From an uncultured Opitutaceae bacterium (lineage in GTDB: Bacteria; Verrucomicrobiota; Verrucomicrobiia; Opitutales; Opitutaceae): a stretch of DNA of 46,683 nucleotides. A model generated the notes under the pieces. The model had not been told where the DNA came from, ran no database searches, and saw only the letters and a program-made list of their open reading frames with translations. The stretch covers positions 1 to 46,683 of the forward strand of contig CALFNN010000016.1 of assembly GCA_937902925.1 (NCBI GenBank), written 5' to 3'. Position numbers and translations under genes: made by a program. This document shows positions 33,637-44,152 of this stretch, piece by piece. Numbering within the stretch: position 1 is the first letter of the stretch; each line of letters starts with the position of its first letter.

Positions 33637-33768
33637 GAAATGAATTTCGTATTTTGGTGGGGCAACGCGAATTGACGGGCCGGGATGAATGACGGTTGAC
33701 CGGGTAGGGTTGGCGCGCAGATGTTCGCTGTAGGGTGCCTACCCCAGGGCGCCCTATCCCAGCCCAGC

Positions 33769-36255
33769 ATGAATTTGCCCCGCTTAGCGCAGCGGTGGAG
33801 TCTCTCCATCCGCGGCATGGCTTTCTTGTTGTCGGTGGTCGCGCTTGCGCCCGTCGCCTACATGCTTGGTCGCGGGCTGATGGCGAGCCGCAATGTCGCC
33901 TACATGGACGACATCGATGGCACGCTGATGCTGCTCATCCGGCTGCACGATGGCGGCTCATGGTCCGATCTCGGTCAATGGCTGTTCGAAATTTCCAATG
34001 AACACCGGATGGTGACGAGCCGCCTGCTCGTCACGCTGAGCTACTGGCTCAGCGGCACGGTGAATTTCAACATCATGGGCGTGATCGGGAACCTGTTTCT
34101 CTGCACGCTCTGTGGGTTGTTGATCCGCACGGCTGGAACGGCGGAACGCCGCTGGGGCATGGCGCTGCTGTTGGCGGGATTCCTCTTTCAGCTCGAGCAC
34201 TTCGAAAATTTTTTCTGGTCCGGATCCTCGATCGACCATTTTCAAGTTCCGCTGCTGGCCGGATGCGCGATCATGCTGCTGGCGCGCGGCGGCTGGGTGG
34301 CGAGCCTGGGTGCGGGCCTGCTCGCGGCGCTGGCGACGTTTACCCTGGCGCACGGCCTGGTGGTCTGGCCGGTCGGCGTGGTGATGCTCGTGGTCGATCG
34401 TCGCTGGCGCCAGCTGGCGGGTTGGCTCGGCGTCGGGATCGTGGCGGGCGTCGCGTATTTTTCCACGTTCGAATTCAATCCCGGGCACCACATCGAGGTC
34501 GTCTCCGCGATCGCGGCGCTGCATATTTTCCGTTACTGGCTGGAGTTGCTCGGCGCGCCGCTCGCCTTGGGCGTAAAGATTCCGGCCGAAATCTTGGGCG
34601 CCGGACTGGTGGCGCTGATCGGCTGGCAGGTTTGGTCGGGCGGGCTCCGCCGCGAGCGCATCGCGTTGCCGCTGGCGATCTGGGCGATCGGCAGCCTGAG
34701 CTTGGTGGCGGTGGGGCGCGCCAATCTGGGCGACGGGGTCCTGAGCTCGCGCTACTACATCCTCGGTGCCCTGGCGTGGGCCCTCGTCCTGCATGTGGAA
34801 CTGCAGCGGCGGCGCGACTCGACCCGACCCTACCGGTTCGTGGCGTGGCTGGTGCCCGCGCTGATCGCGTTCAACGTCGCCGCGGATGTGAAGTTTTCCG
34901 GCCCCGCGCGGGCGTGGGTGGCTGACCGCGACAACGCGGTGGCCAGTTTCGTGCAACATGGCCGGGACGGTGCGGGATCCGCCACGCTGCACCCGCTGCC
35001 CAACCACGCGACGCGCGTGATTCGCCAGGCGGAGGAACTCGGCGTGTTCGAGTTGCCGCGCCAGGCCGAGGAATGTGAATTCCCGATCACCCGGCCCGGC
35101 GAGGGATTTTCGAGCGCGGTCGACCGGATGGTGGTGGACGAGAACCTGGTGACGATCGAGGGCTGGGCGGCGATCGTGGGCCGGGCGGCACGGCCCGGCG
35201 ACGTGCACGTGCTGTTGTGCTCGGGAAACACCCGTCACGTGCTGACGACCGCGGCGGTGCCACGGCCGGACGTGGCCGCGGCCTTTCCGGGCGAACGCTG
35301 GCAGGAAGCCGGGTTCCGGCTGCAGCTGCGGCGCTGGCTCCTGCCCCCGGAAAACTACCAGGTGGGATTGTTGATTCCCACCGAACGGGGCCCGGAAGTC
35401 GTCATGACGGGGCAGCGGCTGATGCTCGACGACGACGCCACGGCGATCGAACGGGACAAGGTGGCGCCGAGCCGCATCGTCTACGACGAACTGCTCCTCC
35501 GACGGCCGACGACGAGCGTCAACGCGGCCTCGAAGAAACCGGTGCGGGTTTCCTTCCTCGATCTGCACGACAATCTCGTGCACGTCGATTTCAGCGGGGC
35601 GGGGACGATGACGATCAACCTTTCCCCGGCGATCCCGGTGGAGCCATCGCTGCGTGAAAATGGGCGGCGGGTTGCCTACCTCAAGGGCCTGGCGTCGATT
35701 GTCATCACGGGTGCGGACGGCTCGACGAACCTGTCGATGTTTTCGGCCCGGCGGCAGCCGCGCGGGCCCGGGCAGGGTGCCGACTGGATCCGCGACGGCT
35801 TGACCCACATGGCATCCCTTTCGATCGCCAGCCGCGACGGGCAGTTCGGCGGCGTGCGGGCCGGCAACGTATGGTTTCGCGCCACGCGGGGTGTGACCGG
35901 CATCGCGGCGGCGGGGGTGCATTTTCGGGGACCAGTGGTGATCGGCAACATCAACGCCGCGGGGAGCGCCACGCCCGTGCTCCAGCTTGGAACAGCGCGT
36001 GATGTCCGCGTTGCCGGCGGCAACCTGCGTCAGGCCAACGGCCGGCCCGTGCGGGTGAGCGGCATGGCCCGCCTGCGGTTTGTGGCCGGCCAGACGTCGC
36101 GCGGTGTCGCGTTACCGGCCCGGCGCGCCCAGGCGACCCTGGTGGAAAACGGCGACGACGTGACCCGCCGCCTCGCGCGGGATGCGCTTCCCGTGCAGCA
36201 GTCGATGGCGGTGCGCGAGAGCGACGAGGCGAGCGACAGCGCCGGCCGACTTTAG
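33769..36255 (+). CDS. Large membrane protein: GT-C-like N-half fused to a beta-rich domain
   Basis: This protein of about 828 residues is not a family I can name. The first 400 residues contain about 10-11 membrane helices. A first outer loop carries VAYMDDIDGTLMLLIRLHDG followed by FEISNEHRMVTSRLLVTLSY. The acidic DDID loop and the NEHR segment recall polytopic GT-C glycosyltransferases. Residues 420-828 are soluble, rich in Gly, Ala and Val, and probably beta-structured. WFRATRGVTGIAAAGVHFRG and VVIGNINAAGSATPVLQLG suggest repeated strand turns. I place the start at the ATG at 33769, which gives a normal first helix. An ATG at 33721 would add 16 unusual residues. Location after the glycolate operon says little; a role in envelope glycan modification is a guess. 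Confidence 0.7.
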   Translation: MNLPRLAQRWSLSIRGMAFLLSVVALAPVAYMLGRGLMASRNVAYMDDIDGTLMLLIRLHDGGSWSDLGQWLFEISNEHRMVTSRLLVTLSYWLSGTVNFNIMGVIGNLFLCTLCGLLIRTAGTAERRWGMALLLAGFLFQLEHFENFFWSGSSIDHFQVPLLAGCAIMLLARGGWVASLGAGLLAALATFTLAHGLVVWPVGVVMLVVDRRWRQLAGWLGVGIVAGVAYFSTFEFNPGHHIEVVSAIAALHIFRYWLELLGAPLALGVKIPAEILGAGLVALIGWQVWSGGLRRERIALPLAIWAIGSLSLVAVGRANLGDGVLSSRYYILGALAWALVLHVELQRRRDSTRPYRFVAWLVPALIAFNVAADVKFSGPARAWVADRDNAVASFVQHGRDGAGSATLHPLPNHATRVIRQAEELGVFELPRQAEECEFPITRPGEGFSSAVDRMVVDENLVTIEGWAAIVGRAARPGDVHVLLCSGNTRHVLTTAAVPRPDVAAAFPGERWQEAGFRLQLRRWLLPPENYQVGLLIPTERGPEVVMTGQRLMLDDDATAIERDKVAPSRIVYDELLLRRPTTSVNAASKKPVRVSFLDLHDNLVHVDFSGAGTMTINLSPAIPVEPSLRENGRRVAYLKGLASIVITGADGSTNLSMFSARRQPRGPGQGADWIRDGLTHMASLSIASRDGQFGGVRAGNVWFRATRGVTGIAAAGVHFRGPVVIGNINAAGSATPVLQLGTARDVRVAGGNLRQANGRPVRVSGMARLRFVAGQTSRGVALPARRAQATLVENGDDVTRRLARDALPVQQSMAVRESDEASDSAGRL

Positions 36256-41254: not shown

Positions 41255-44152
41255 ATGGAACGCGACAACCTCCTGCAGAATTTTCTGACGCCGTCGTTCG
41301 TGCTGCTGCTCGTCGGCATCGCCGGGATGTTCGCCCCGCGGGCGCCGTTGCAATCGCCGCGACCGACGGACAGCCGGGCGTGGCCCGTGGCGGAGCAGCG
41401 CGTCGAGGCGCGACTGTGGCAGGATCCGTTCGCGAGCATTTGCGTGCCGGACAATATCGACAAATTTACGAAGGCCGGGGTCTTCGTCGCGCCGCGCGAA
41501 CCCGGGGAGCGGGCGTTGTTGTTGAGCGTGGTGGTCGAGGGCGGCAGCTATGCGGAGGACATCGAGTCGCGCCTGCGCACCCGCTATGCCGTGGTGACGG
41601 CGTTGCAACGCGCCGGCTATGTGGCGGCCGATGCCGAGCGGATCGGGCTGGCGCTGCTGGCGCGCCGCACCTCTCGGACGACCGCGAAGGACGTCATCGT
41701 GGCCCATGAGTCGTTCAATGGCGGGCCCGCGACACCCTATCGGACGGTGGTGGTCCTGTGGCTGGTTGATCGCGATTTTTCCGAAGCCGACGATGTGCGG
41801 GCGCTGCCCGACGAGCTGGGCTGGACGAAAAACCTGAAGCTGGAGCACAAGGTGATCGGTCCGCGCTCCTCGGACGGCCTGGAAAAATTTTGCCGGCAGG
41901 GTGCCGCTGCGCCCGGCGGCCGGGCGCAGCCCGAATGGTTTTCCCCCTGGGCGACGGCGAGCGCGCGAAGATTGCTGCAGGATATCGGGCCGACCAGGGG
42001 CACGCGCGCGCTCGGATTGCAGCGCTGCATCGCGACCGACGACCGGCTGGCCCAGGCGACGGTGGAGGAATTGCGGGCCCGGTTGGGCGAACGACGGGCG
42101 GGGGGCCTCGGGGTGGTGCTGCTGGCGGAGTCGGACACCTACTACGGTCGAGCGCTGCCGGAGGAGTTCGAAGGCGCGCTCGCCCGCAGCTTCGGGCGCG
42201 CTGGCGGACGATTGAAGATTCTTCAGGCGACCTATCTTCGCGGAGTGGACGGCGAGACCGGCGACGGCGCCAGCGCGGCGGCCAAGCCCGCCGGCGGTGC
42301 CGCCAGACCGGCGGGGAGCGGCGAGGGCGAGGTGGCCCACGGTCCGCGACAACTCGACTATGTCCGCCGCCTGGCGCGCGAAGTGGCGGCGTGGATGGCG
42401 CAACAGGGCGTGAGCGACGTGGCGGTCGGCGTGCTGGGCAGCGATGTCTACGACAAACTCGTGCTGCTCGATGCGCTGCGCGCGGAGCTGCCGGATGCGA
42501 CCTATTTCACCACCGATCTCGACGCGCGGCTGGCCGAGCCGGACAACGTGCGGCGGACGCAGGGCCTCCTGGTGTTTTCGAGTTACGGGCTGAAGCCGCT
42601 CGAGTTATCCGGCAGGACGAACGAGAAAAAGCAGGCTCCATTCCGGGACAATTACCAAAGCGCGACCCACGCGGCGACGCTCGCCGCCCTGGGGAGCGTG
42701 ACCATCGACGAAATCGCGCGGGCCGGGGCCGTCGGCAAATACGTCATCGGCTGCGGCACGATCCAGCCGCTCGAGCCACTCCAGGCCGGCGCGCTGCGGC
42801 GGTGGATGGTAGGCTGGCTGGGATTGACCCTGTTGCTCCTGGTGATCGCCGGCTGGCGCCGGCTGAAAAATCCATTGTCGCATCGCGTGTTCCGGCTGGG
42901 CGGCGCGATCCTCGGGATTCTGATGATGGTGGCCGGGATCGGCGCCGTGACGTTCTGGTGGCGGGTCGGAGCATGGATCGGGTTGGGTCTCCTGCTCGTG
43001 CTGATCGTCTGCTGGGACTGGCTTGGGCGCTCGCGGCTAACCGAGTTGGCGGGTCACGCGCTGGCGCAACTCCGGGCGATTTTTGCGTTCGGCGTGCTGT
43101 GGAGCGGGTTTTGCGCCATCGGCATGGCGGGTTGGGGCTGGGACTGGCACGCGAAGGAATCGTTCAGCCTGACGAGTGGAGCGAGTGCGTGGCCGGGCGA
43201 GGTATTGCGAGCGCTCGCGGTGGTGGTGCTGGTTTTCTCCGCCAAGTATTTCGAATTTCGACTCGTCGGATTGCACGACCGGCTGGCGGCCAAATACCAC
43301 CTGCCCGCGCCGGACACGTGTGGGATGCGCACGTGGGTCCGGGCCCTGGGGTGCGCGGGTCAGGACATCGTCGGCTTTTTTGTGCGCGGCGGCGAAGAAC
43401 GCGCCCGGACGCTGGCCGCGCCGCTGGCGGCGGTCTGGCGCCACTACATCGAAAACGGTCGCGAGCAATCGCGCATCGTGCGGATGGCCGGCTACGCCGC
43501 GATGTTCCTCGCGGGCATGGTGTTCGTATTTGCGCTGTTCGGCCTGCCGCATTTTCCCGGGCGGGGTGCGGTGTGGGCGGCGGCGCACTGGGCATTGATG
43601 ATCATCGCGATATTCGGGATGGCGTGCACGGTGGGATTCGTGATCGACGCGTCGCGGCTGTCGGTGGATTTCCTGCAGGGCCTGCGCGACCCGGTGATGG
43701 CCGTTGGCAGCGGCCCCGGCTCATCCCCCGCGACGATGGTCACGATCATGCGGCTGGCCGGGGAGCAGACTCATACGGTCGGACGGCTGGTCTACGTGCC
43801 GGCCGTGGCATGGCTGTTCCTGGTGACGGCACGGTTTTCCTATTTCGACCGCGCGGACTGGCCGTGGTCGTTCAGCCTGCCGCTGCTCATGGTCGGGTGG
43901 ATGCTGGTGATGCGGTCGGTGGTGCTGCGGAACGAGGCCGAGTGCCTGCGGCGCTCCTATCTGGAGGCGTTGAGCTTTGGCGCAATGGCAAATGCGGCCA
44001 CCCCGGAAGAGCGTAGCAAAGCCGCCGAACAGATCGCGAGCTTCGCGGCCGGGGCATTCGCGCCGTTGAGCCGGCAGCCGATCGTCGGGGCGGTGTTGAT
44101 CCCGTTTGGCGGGGCGGGGGCGCTGGAGTTGCTGCAGCGCTTCGCGTTTTGA
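41255..44152 (+). CDS. Receptor-like membrane protein with type-1 periplasmic-binding-like domain
   Basis: This 965-residue protein is not a named family to me. A membrane helix lies at residues 12-28 (TPSFVLLLVGIAGMF). A large region of nearly 490 residues outside the membrane follows. It includes LGVVLLAESDTYYGRALPEE (near residue 285), like LivJ-type type-1 periplasmic-binding proteins, and GVLGSDVYDKLVLLDALRAE (near 392) with TYFTTDLDARLAEPDN. After residue 510 come about 9 or 10 membrane helices, the first being WLGLTLLLLVIAGW. The C-terminal cytoplasmic tail of 60 residues contains PEERSKAAEQIASFAAGAFA. No kinase, cyclase or GGDEF domain is present. The architecture suggests a ligand-sensing membrane protein; no partner gene is obvious. 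It converges on corA 16 bp away. Confidence 0.7.
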   Translation: MERDNLLQNFLTPSFVLLLVGIAGMFAPRAPLQSPRPTDSRAWPVAEQRVEARLWQDPFASICVPDNIDKFTKAGVFVAPREPGERALLLSVVVEGGSYAEDIESRLRTRYAVVTALQRAGYVAADAERIGLALLARRTSRTTAKDVIVAHESFNGGPATPYRTVVVLWLVDRDFSEADDVRALPDELGWTKNLKLEHKVIGPRSSDGLEKFCRQGAAAPGGRAQPEWFSPWATASARRLLQDIGPTRGTRALGLQRCIATDDRLAQATVEELRARLGERRAGGLGVVLLAESDTYYGRALPEEFEGALARSFGRAGGRLKILQATYLRGVDGETGDGASAAAKPAGGAARPAGSGEGEVAHGPRQLDYVRRLAREVAAWMAQQGVSDVAVGVLGSDVYDKLVLLDALRAELPDATYFTTDLDARLAEPDNVRRTQGLLVFSSYGLKPLELSGRTNEKKQAPFRDNYQSATHAATLAALGSVTIDEIARAGAVGKYVIGCGTIQPLEPLQAGALRRWMVGWLGLTLLLLVIAGWRRLKNPLSHRVFRLGGAILGILMMVAGIGAVTFWWRVGAWIGLGLLLVLIVCWDWLGRSRLTELAGHALAQLRAIFAFGVLWSGFCAIGMAGWGWDWHAKESFSLTSGASAWPGEVLRALAVVVLVFSAKYFEFRLVGLHDRLAAKYHLPAPDTCGMRTWVRALGCAGQDIVGFFVRGGEERARTLAAPLAAVWRHYIENGREQSRIVRMAGYAAMFLAGMVFVFALFGLPHFPGRGAVWAAAHWALMIIAIFGMACTVGFVIDASRLSVDFLQGLRDPVMAVGSGPGSSPATMVTIMRLAGEQTHTVGRLVYVPAVAWLFLVTARFSYFDRADWPWSFSLPLLMVGWMLVMRSVVLRNEAECLRRSYLEALSFGAMANAATPEERSKAAEQIASFAAGAFAPLSRQPIVGAVLIPFGGAGALELLQRFAF

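Follow-up and report, generated by a model that had tools for sequence, protein, structure and literature searches.

A widespread bacterial membrane protein family with a predicted type-1 binding-protein domain and a membrane bundle that may resemble insect chemoreceptor channels

The stretch of DNA analysed here, referred to as the window, comprises 46,683 nucleotides of contig CALFNN010000016.1 from an uncultured Opitutaceae bacterium with a genome of 6.0 Mb. The gene in question is the open reading frame (ORF) at positions 41255–44152 of the forward strand, which begins with ATG and encodes 965 amino acids followed by a stop codon. A first, sequence-only reading had taken its product for a receptor-like membrane protein, and the ORF itself was confirmed: the protein is collinear along its length with relatives in several phyla (24–30% identity) and is therefore not a chance frame. 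We tentatively propose that it is a receptor in which a periplasmic Venus flytrap domain gates a membrane channel. Upstream lies a gene for a GNAT acetyltransferase (Pfam Acetyltransf_3), with 94 bases from its stop to the family gene, and a convergent corA gene (Pfam CorA) follows 16 bases behind it. The promoter scan at the locus found no sigma-70-like promoter for the 965-residue gene, and terminator-like sites at the locus were no more frequent than in shuffled sequences. The features of the gene are collected in Table 1.

The searches of Pfam, NCBIfam and PADLOC at E-values up to 10 gave no match for the protein, and sequence searches of the PDB gave weak matches only. The first reading could not name the family, and the same held for all of these searches; none of them matched the protein, with confidence and over its full length, to a transporter or regulator that has been characterised. 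The family has no Pfam or NCBIfam name and is widespread in bacteria. When the single protein was used as a query, it matched one of 38 relatives, namely the window itself, eight of 252 genomes of the window's own taxonomic family (own genome included), and no confirmed relative among the genome contigs and viral contigs. As these searches missed most of the family, alignments were needed as queries. An alignment of six members (A1) matched seven of 387 genomes in the phylum, again including the own genome, and a locus encoding a relative was confirmed 203 times across 84,980 GTDB species genomes, with one genome per species. The 80 loci analysed further were the best 80 of the 203, picked by similarity and two peptide patterns, and are not an even sample; they contained 75 full-length ORFs according to a profile-coverage rule. 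By their names, 44 of the 80 belong to Nitrospirota (24), to the ammonia oxidisers Nitrosomonas, Nitrosospira and Nitrosovibrio (14), to anammox Planctomycetota (5) and to Nitrospinia (1). The remaining 36 include Variovorax, Rugamonas, Thiobacillus, Methylomonas, Mariprofundus, deltaproteobacteria and Verrucomicrobiota. The 73 members referred to below (alignment A2) are the window's sequence, five sequences from genomes of its taxonomic family and 67 of the 75 full-length ORFs, with eight duplicates or near-duplicates omitted.

The structure of the window protein was predicted with AlphaFold2 from 73 sequences (mean predicted local distance difference test, pLDDT, 76.0; predicted template modelling score, pTM, 0.73). 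A Foldseek search of the PDB with the full-length model returned the LivJ-type structure 4q6b as the best match (E 5.6e-7), and the ligand domain of mGluR5 (3lmk) was matched at E 8.8e-7. In the structure comparison with VIA, model residues 87–507 aligned with LivK (3td9) at Z 23.8 over 296 residues and 3.4 Å, and the other 49 rows among the matches listed had Z of 18.8–23.2. Residues ~85–507 are thus firmly predicted to form a complete two-lobed type-1 periplasmic-binding (LivJ/mGluR) fold. The LivJ-like binding fold that had been suspected from the letters is supported by these comparisons; its extent, first put at residues 270–480, proved too small.

The flytrap was also examined at the level of profiles. 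For this, a flytrap profile (A4) was compared by hhalign with a second profile, built from LivJ and LivK of E. coli and 59 proteins of PF13458 type found in other genomes. The local alignment scored 55.1 (P 1.3e-6, probability 90.5) over residues 200–314, and the scores of 30 column-shuffled controls and of the reversed profile were at most 16.3 and 12.4, respectively. Several results limit this support. Twenty block-permuted controls, in which pieces of 60 columns were kept intact, reached 48.1, as expected if single pieces carry signal. The hhalign support is local, covering the first lobe and the hinge (94 columns), and the global alignments had probabilities of 11.6, 35.7 and 59.7 with the second lobe wrongly aligned. 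The transmembrane (TM) alignment scored 46.3 over 17 columns, because both cut-outs share the linker at E486. The comparison agrees with a type-1 binding fold over the first lobe. In the own genome, the PF13458 profile matched three other places, the family gene not being among them.

The local alignment pairs S206, A233, T234 and Y297 with Ser79, Ala101, Thr102 and Tyr150 of mature LivJ. Serine or threonine occupies both counterparts of the LivJ Ser/Thr residues in 73/73 members, and position 233 is alanine in 68 (the other columns are given in Table 1). In the second lobe, D421 or D423 of the FFTTDLDARL motif is a candidate acidic ligand contact. In LivJ, the second-lobe contact is Glu226. 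FFTTDLDARL, the form in which the motif had first been quoted, is the family consensus, and the window protein itself has Y in the first position; the other block quoted as conserved, GVLGSDVYDKLVLLDALR, is present as such. Passages of a docking study of LivJ with isoleucine describe Ser79 and Thr102 as polar contacts and Tyr150, Cys78 and Ala101 as being among the hydrophobic ones (PMC6983066). By analogy, the ligand of the flytrap may be amino-acid-like.

The family thus shares with LivJ/LivK, AmiC and UrtA (PF13458 and kin) the two-lobed fold and, in the predicted alignment, the three polar or aromatic counterparts of Ser79, Thr102 and Tyr150. Unlike these proteins, it is membrane-anchored and fused to a polytopic bundle in the 73 aligned members, is not matched by PF13458, has an insert at ~330–366 (read from the alignments), and no conserved ABC transporter was found beside its gene. 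A transporter or permease that carries its substrate-binding domain as a fusion would likewise unite such a fold with a polytopic membrane part; ABC-type binding proteins are the closest known flytraps, and single members gave weak Pfam transporter scores (TctB in 2/73, best E 0.0061; BPD_transp_1 in 1/73, E 0.039). We regard this explanation as improbable. Neighbouring permeases common to the loci were not found, ABC ATPase frames lie scattered from −7.6 to +9.5 kb near at least 12 loci, as expected of a common family, and no transporter fold came near the top of the bundle search described below.

A simple Kyte–Doolittle threshold gave the window protein one hydrophobic segment at the N-terminus, in line with the helix first noticed there, and ten C-terminal segments. 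The nine or ten membrane helices first counted agree with this number, against seven or eight C-terminal segments in 56 of the 73 members; two of the ten segments (centres 557 and 617) are peculiar to the window protein, and the model is of low confidence around them. Being even in number, these two would leave the topology unchanged. The N-terminal segment is single in 65 members, double in 3 and absent from 5, and the conserved hydrophobic segments over the family are centred near 523, 580, 657, 753, 788, 850 and 882. The mean numbers of K+R and D+E were 3.7/1.0, 12.3/8.5 and 8.5/6.5 in the inner loops after 523, 657 and 788 (mean lengths 21, 77 and 53 residues), and 10.2/7.6 in the stretch after 882 that precedes the last segment, S7b, on the inner side. 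For the outer loops after 580, 753 and 850, they were 0.8/2.9, 1.4/0.9 and 1.5/1.6 (mean lengths 23, 14 and 12 residues). Under the positive-inside rule, these charges place the flytrap outside, so that the helix at 523 is predicted to run inward, with S1 starting inside and the next six helices alternating from this inner start. Two counts of seven are possible on this basis. In one, the helix at 523 and the following six would make a seven like that of G protein-coupled receptors (GPCRs), with a cytoplasmic C-terminal stretch. In the other, the six and the last segment (942–964), if it crosses the membrane, would make a seven like that of the seven-transmembrane ion channels (7TMICs), with an outer end and with 523 as a linker.

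Table 1. Features of the 965-residue protein gene in the window (residue numbers in brackets; conservation among the 73 members)
Feature	Coordinates	Strand	Basis and remarks
Whole gene, 965 aa	41255..44152	+	ORF call; homologues full length
N-terminal membrane anchor (10–28; model helix 13–26)	41282..41338	+	Hydropathy; model (low pLDDT here)
RLWQDPF motif, family signature before flytrap (53–59)	41411..41431	+	P58 invariant; R53, L54, W55, D57 in ≥90%
Predicted type-1 periplasmic-binding (Venus flytrap) domain (85–507)	41507..42775	+	VIA, Foldseek; hhalign for 200–314
VIGPRSS (200–206), S206 as LivJ Ser79 counterpart	41852..41872	+	hhalign; S 69, T 4
SPWAT (230–234), T234 as LivJ Thr102 and A233 as Ala101 counterpart	41942..41956	+	hhalign; T 71, S 2
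DTYYGR (294–299), Y297 as LivJ Tyr150 counterpart	42134..42151	+	hhalign; Y 70, F 3
GVLGSDVYDKLVLLDALR (392–409), second-lobe strand and helix	42428..42481	+	D400 invariant; D397 in 71/73
YFTTDLDARL (417–426), candidate second-lobe ligand contact	42503..42532	+	F418 invariant; D421 64/73, D423 66/73; putative role
PFRDNYQ (462–468), family-specific motif	42638..42658	+	F463, R464, Q468 invariant
Linker helix TM2 (512–536), predicted out to in	42788..42862	+	Model (low pLDDT); 72 hydrophobic segments over 73 members at 520–540
S1-like helix (565–589)	42947..43021	+	Model (low pLDDT); alignment to relative's confident model
Outer loop ESFSLTSGASAWP (635–647), family GEPF....GISxWP	43157..43195	+	G642, S644, W646 invariant
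S2-like helix (646–680)	43190..43294	+	Models of window protein and relative
S3-like helix (737–762)	43463..43540	+	Models of window protein and relative
S4-like long helix (771–811), with D798	43565..43687	+	Models; alignment
S5-like helix (825–858), broken near P849	43727..43828	+	Models; P in 72/73
S6-like long helix (871–907)	43865..43975	+	Models of window protein and relative
S7a-like cytoplasmic helix (917–929)	44003..44041	+	Models of window protein and relative
S7b-like C-terminal hydrophobic helix (942–964), GG-rich, candidate pore helix	44078..44146	+	Models; P942 invariant; crossing and pore lining putative

The membrane bundle was then considered alone. For this, the 73 members were aligned from the invariant E486 to the end (A3), and the alignment served to predict the structure of the bundle of the Ca. 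Nitrospira defluvii member (L059), with a pLDDT of 85.7 and a pTM of 0.84. In the Foldseek search of the PDB, rows 1–16 were all insect gustatory or odorant receptors (GRs or ORs), the best being Gr43a (8x82; E 0.019, probability 1.00, TM-scores 0.36 and 0.41); row 17 was a nucleotide-sugar transporter (E 0.77, probability 0.07), and the later rows were mixed. VIA likewise returned insect GRs or ORs in rows 1–19, with BmGr9 (8vc2) as the best (Z 11.6, 294 residues, 6.0 Å). The alignments to the insect receptors span model residues ~73 to 438 of 447.

The helices of the bundle model were set beside those of BmGr9 (in brackets, as numbered in passages of PMC11100771) by order only, not by coordinates: S1 80–103 (52–79), S2 120–154 (90–135), S3 200–225 (141–176), S4 235–275 (178–229), broken S5 296–331 (287–339), S6 344–384 (345–389), S7a 391–409 (395–409) and broken S7b 422–446 (424–444). 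The portions of the literature that define 7TMICs name the helix packing, long TM4–6 that project far below the bundle, a split TM7, a cytoplasmic start and inner loops that are longer as a rule; a tetrameric ligand-gated cation channel is a further criterion (PMC9998090, PMC7746228). In the model, S4 and S6 have 41 residues each and the broken S5 has ~36 (lengths from predicted helices, not coordinates), and the last helices (391–409, 422–428 and 434–446) fit a split TM7 at the secondary-structure level. Two of the inner loops, with 77 and 53 residues, are longer than their outer counterparts of 14 and 12, but in the first pair the inner loop has 21 residues and the outer one 23, and S7b has to be counted to arrive at seven helices. 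At the level of predicted secondary structure and loop statistics, these features fit a 7TMIC. We conclude that the bundle probably has a 7TMIC-like fold and suggest, with less assurance, a channel function. The first reading had offered a ligand sensor working by helix movement or a sensor-gated channel; the channel is now the better supported of the two, through a likeness that is structural only.

If the output were helix movement without ion conduction, the flytrap receptor would pass its signal to an unlinked partner in the cytoplasm, as class C GPCRs or 7TMR-DISM receptors do. A class C GPCR was our first reading after the full-length fold search, in which such receptors (9llz, 9uyo, 9mba and 8jd6) were matched via the flytrap, and after the seven conserved helices were seen. 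By loop charge, TM2 and S1–S6 would supply seven helices that start outside and are followed by a C-terminal stretch on the inner side, as in a GPCR, and the two longest inner loops could bind a partner. This reading moved to second place when the search with the isolated bundle pointed to insect receptors; GPCRs are missing from the 50 rows listed by each of Foldseek and VIA, which is an absence from a list and not an exclusion. Where the full-length alignments to class C receptors extend into the membrane part, the root-mean-square deviation is ~30 Å, and the neighbourhood survey found no kinase, cyclase or regulator conserved beside the gene. Pfam 7tm_3 did not match the window protein, and neither it nor another 7TM receptor is among the 25 of 73 families listed in the search with the 73 bundles. 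This reading now seems unlikely to us, although it keeps some weight.

It should be noted that a number of results count against the likeness to insect channels. The confident bundle model is that of the relative L059, and the first bundle helices are of low confidence in the window protein. The Foldseek E-values are weak (best 0.019), with TM-scores of 0.28–0.43 in rows 1–16, and the Z of 11.6 lies inside the chance range of the tool for helical bundles (up to ~13–14). In VIA, row 19 (Z 8.6) ties with the unrelated 9mg8 (b-iTHR-110; 8.6), followed by 6xns (8.4), and the Z to Orco, 9.6, is below the Dali cut of 10 used in a part of PMC9998090. Profile and PDB sequence searches gave no sequence-level link between the bundle and insect receptors. 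The GR motif TYhhhhhQF is absent, the S7b columns of the 73 members being without TY; one of the two papers from which the 7TMIC criteria were taken (PMC9998090 and PMC7746228) describes the conservation of this motif outside insects as partial or lacking, and it is hence not defining. The segment near 951 (S7b) is less hydrophobic than the others and passes the cut in only 43/73 members, and loop charge alone does not choose between the GPCR-like and the 7TMIC-like counts. The 7TMIC likeness may be an accident of helix-bundle comparison, the bundle being a fold of its own with a sensing flytrap and an unassigned output. This alternative is a serious one, and we judge it somewhat short of even. 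The chance-range Z, the weak E-values and the missing sequence link speak for it; against it, the top rows all belong to one superfamily and cover most of the model, and the split S7 and the long S4 and S6 recur in the predicted helices.

A buried acid–arginine pair, D798/R892, was considered as a parallel to the E200–R361 salt bridge of BmGr9 and dropped, as no covariation was seen: among the 73 members, the S4 acid and the S6 arginine are both present in 54, one only in 10 and 8, and neither in 1, which also speaks against the likeness. The S5 proline P849 and the end of S7b, with E/D/Q in 66/73 members followed by Y/F in 56/73, recall the proline of TPY in S5 of GRs and the final QF of the TYhhhhhQF motif, as described in passages of PMC11100771. 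These are leads only, the register of the VIA ranges being off by 1–2 residues, and the window protein has R, not Y/F, at the second of the two S7b-end positions. One bundle of the 73 scored E 2.8e-5 with DUF4131 of Pfam, the best of scattered weak matches, and was treated as a chance match.

The proposal of a periplasmic flytrap gating a 7TMIC-like channel, and so of a possible bacterial ligand-gated ion channel, is the one we favour, still tentatively. The protein would be a stand-alone membrane receptor with a periplasmic sensor, anchored in the inner membrane by its N-terminal helix. The flytrap would bind a small amino-acid-like ligand, using S206, T234 and Y297 on lobe 1 and D421 or D423 on lobe 2, as suggested by LivJ. 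Closure on the ligand would pull the conserved linker (E486 onward) and helix TM2, and this pull would rearrange the predicted seven-helix bundle, in which S1–S6, with long S4 and S6 reaching into the cytoplasm, are followed by the split S7a/S7b. In an oligomer, S7b would form the lining of a central pore through which ions would cross. No dedicated gene partner would apparently be needed, which fits a channel with ion flux as its output. The probabilities given to the readings follow from the fold match and the lack of partners; the readings overlap, and their probabilities need not sum to one.

Several known systems can be compared with the family. Its helix order, long S4 and S6, split S7a/S7b and inside start of S1, all as predicted, would be features in common with the 7TMIC insect receptors (BmGr9, Gr43a, Orco and MhOr5); unlike them, it is bacterial, has a linker helix and a periplasmic flytrap ahead of the bundle, and shows neither the TYhhhhhQF motif nor detectable sequence similarity. 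Class C GPCRs (mGluR, GABA-B and CaSR) likewise have an outside amino-acid-type flytrap followed by a multi-helix bundle, and the loop charges allow the same orientation, whereas the family protein is bacterial, has an N-terminal anchor helix and has a bundle whose predicted fold matches insect channels. In bacterial ionotropic glutamate receptors of the GluR0 type, the binding domain has the type-2 fold and the pore is that of a potassium channel, with its GYG filter. They also join a bacterial binding-protein domain to a channel, as may be the case here, but the family protein has a predicted type-1 fold, and no GYG was found in its sequence. In passages of one paper, GPCRs are called a eukaryote-only family and the joining of a rhodopsin to a bacterial binding protein is proposed (PMC8687355), and passages of two eLife articles of 2020 and 2023 state that no prokaryotic member of the insect receptor superfamily was found (PMC7746228, PMC9998090). 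A later review (PMC11526382), with reference to Himmel et al. 2023, states that the transfer of 7TMICs from eukaryotes to prokaryotes is supported by several lines of evidence. A flytrap joined to a 7TMIC fold was not found in the literature searched.

The survey of neighbourhoods for conserved partners, suggested by the first reading, found none, and the neighbours differ between lineages. The neighbour genes were called by a simple codon-usage script, by which small neighbours may be missed, and the scan covered 89 of the 94 nearest proteins, with 19 near-duplicate loci left out. In the Pfam scan of these 89, no family was common to more than 3, and, among those listed, the ORF clusters common to distant loci were Nitrospira synteny or common families. 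Effector-type genes lie within 10 kb at a few loci, namely patatin (L064, L095), subtilase (L095), caspase (L085), SEFIR/NB-ARC (L060), SIR2 (L096) and Tle1-like lipase (L037) genes, and a Pfam patatin was found within 10 kb of 6 family genes, in 4 separate lineages, among 43 family genes in 37 genomes, against 0.8 expected if evenly spread; this count was made after examples had been seen and is a lead only. With such neighbours, the protein could be the sensor of an anti-phage or cell-suicide island and set off the effectors encoded nearby on receiving a signal. Such a role is very improbable in our view, as the effectors differ each time, PADLOC gave no match, and the gene is a core gene in the genus of Ca. 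Nitrospira defluvii (28/29 genomes).

Should the bundle prove to be a 7TMIC, bacteria would possess a chemoreceptor channel whose ligand domain is separate and defined. How the smell and taste fold of insects is gated could then be tested with a soluble-ligand domain, and the finding would bear on the origin of the superfamily. The core status in a Nitrospira genus and the deep spread over several phyla would then suggest an old bacterial branch of the insect chemoreceptor fold, not just late eukaryote transfers, and Nitrospira, ammonia oxidisers and anammox bacteria, in which the gene is kept but nameless, would gain a named candidate sensor. Even if the bundle is something else, the sequences point to an unnamed, broadly conserved receptor family with a recognisable putative ligand site.

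Several further observations concern the family. In the FastTree tree, the window protein groups with other Verrucomicrobiota at a support of 0.48 and below, so no conclusion on gene transfer was drawn. The bundle profile matched 42/42 genomes, all chosen for having the gene, in open frames of 961–1356 codons that are long enough for the flytrap too; the sole exception is a fragment of 70 profile positions with a stop in genome G620. The own genome holds a single copy. In the genus of Ca. Nitrospira defluvii, to which genome G613 belongs, a second, diverged copy is found in 21/29 genomes, mostly in open frames of 1055–1148 codons, and the family may therefore have two ligand specificities there. 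A few matches of the Nitrospira genus search are in shorter frames (699, 903 and pieces of 220–787) on small contigs and may be cut. The plasmid search returned one truncated copy, on Methylosinus sp. C49 plasmid pMSC49b (L022:11935-13307), which ends after ~150 residues beside an opposite-strand frame that looks transposase-like by eye; the rest of this gene was not picked up by the protein searches.

Two proteins of immune or cell-suicide type are encoded close to family genes: a SEFIR/TIR-NB-ARC-TPR protein in a Nitrospinia genome (L060:6460-9060, minus strand) and a caspase-DUF7379 protein in a Brocadia genome (L085:10698-13310, plus strand). At three verrucomicrobial loci, the next gene encodes a related lipoprotein-like protein with a common GRNTW.LW stretch, as judged by eye (L026:1-1944, minus; L028:6386-8518, minus; L052:13247-13657, plus), and those of L028 and L052 had no Pfam match. 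A 99-base stretch elsewhere in the own genome (L002, G000:C80:3665-3763) is 74% identical to bases 977–1078 of the gene, within an A/G/P-rich insert, a likeness that is probably one of composition only. Within the window, positions 33721–36255 of the plus strand encode an 844-residue protein that had no Pfam match at E 1e-4 and whose N-terminal half appears hydrophobic by eye.

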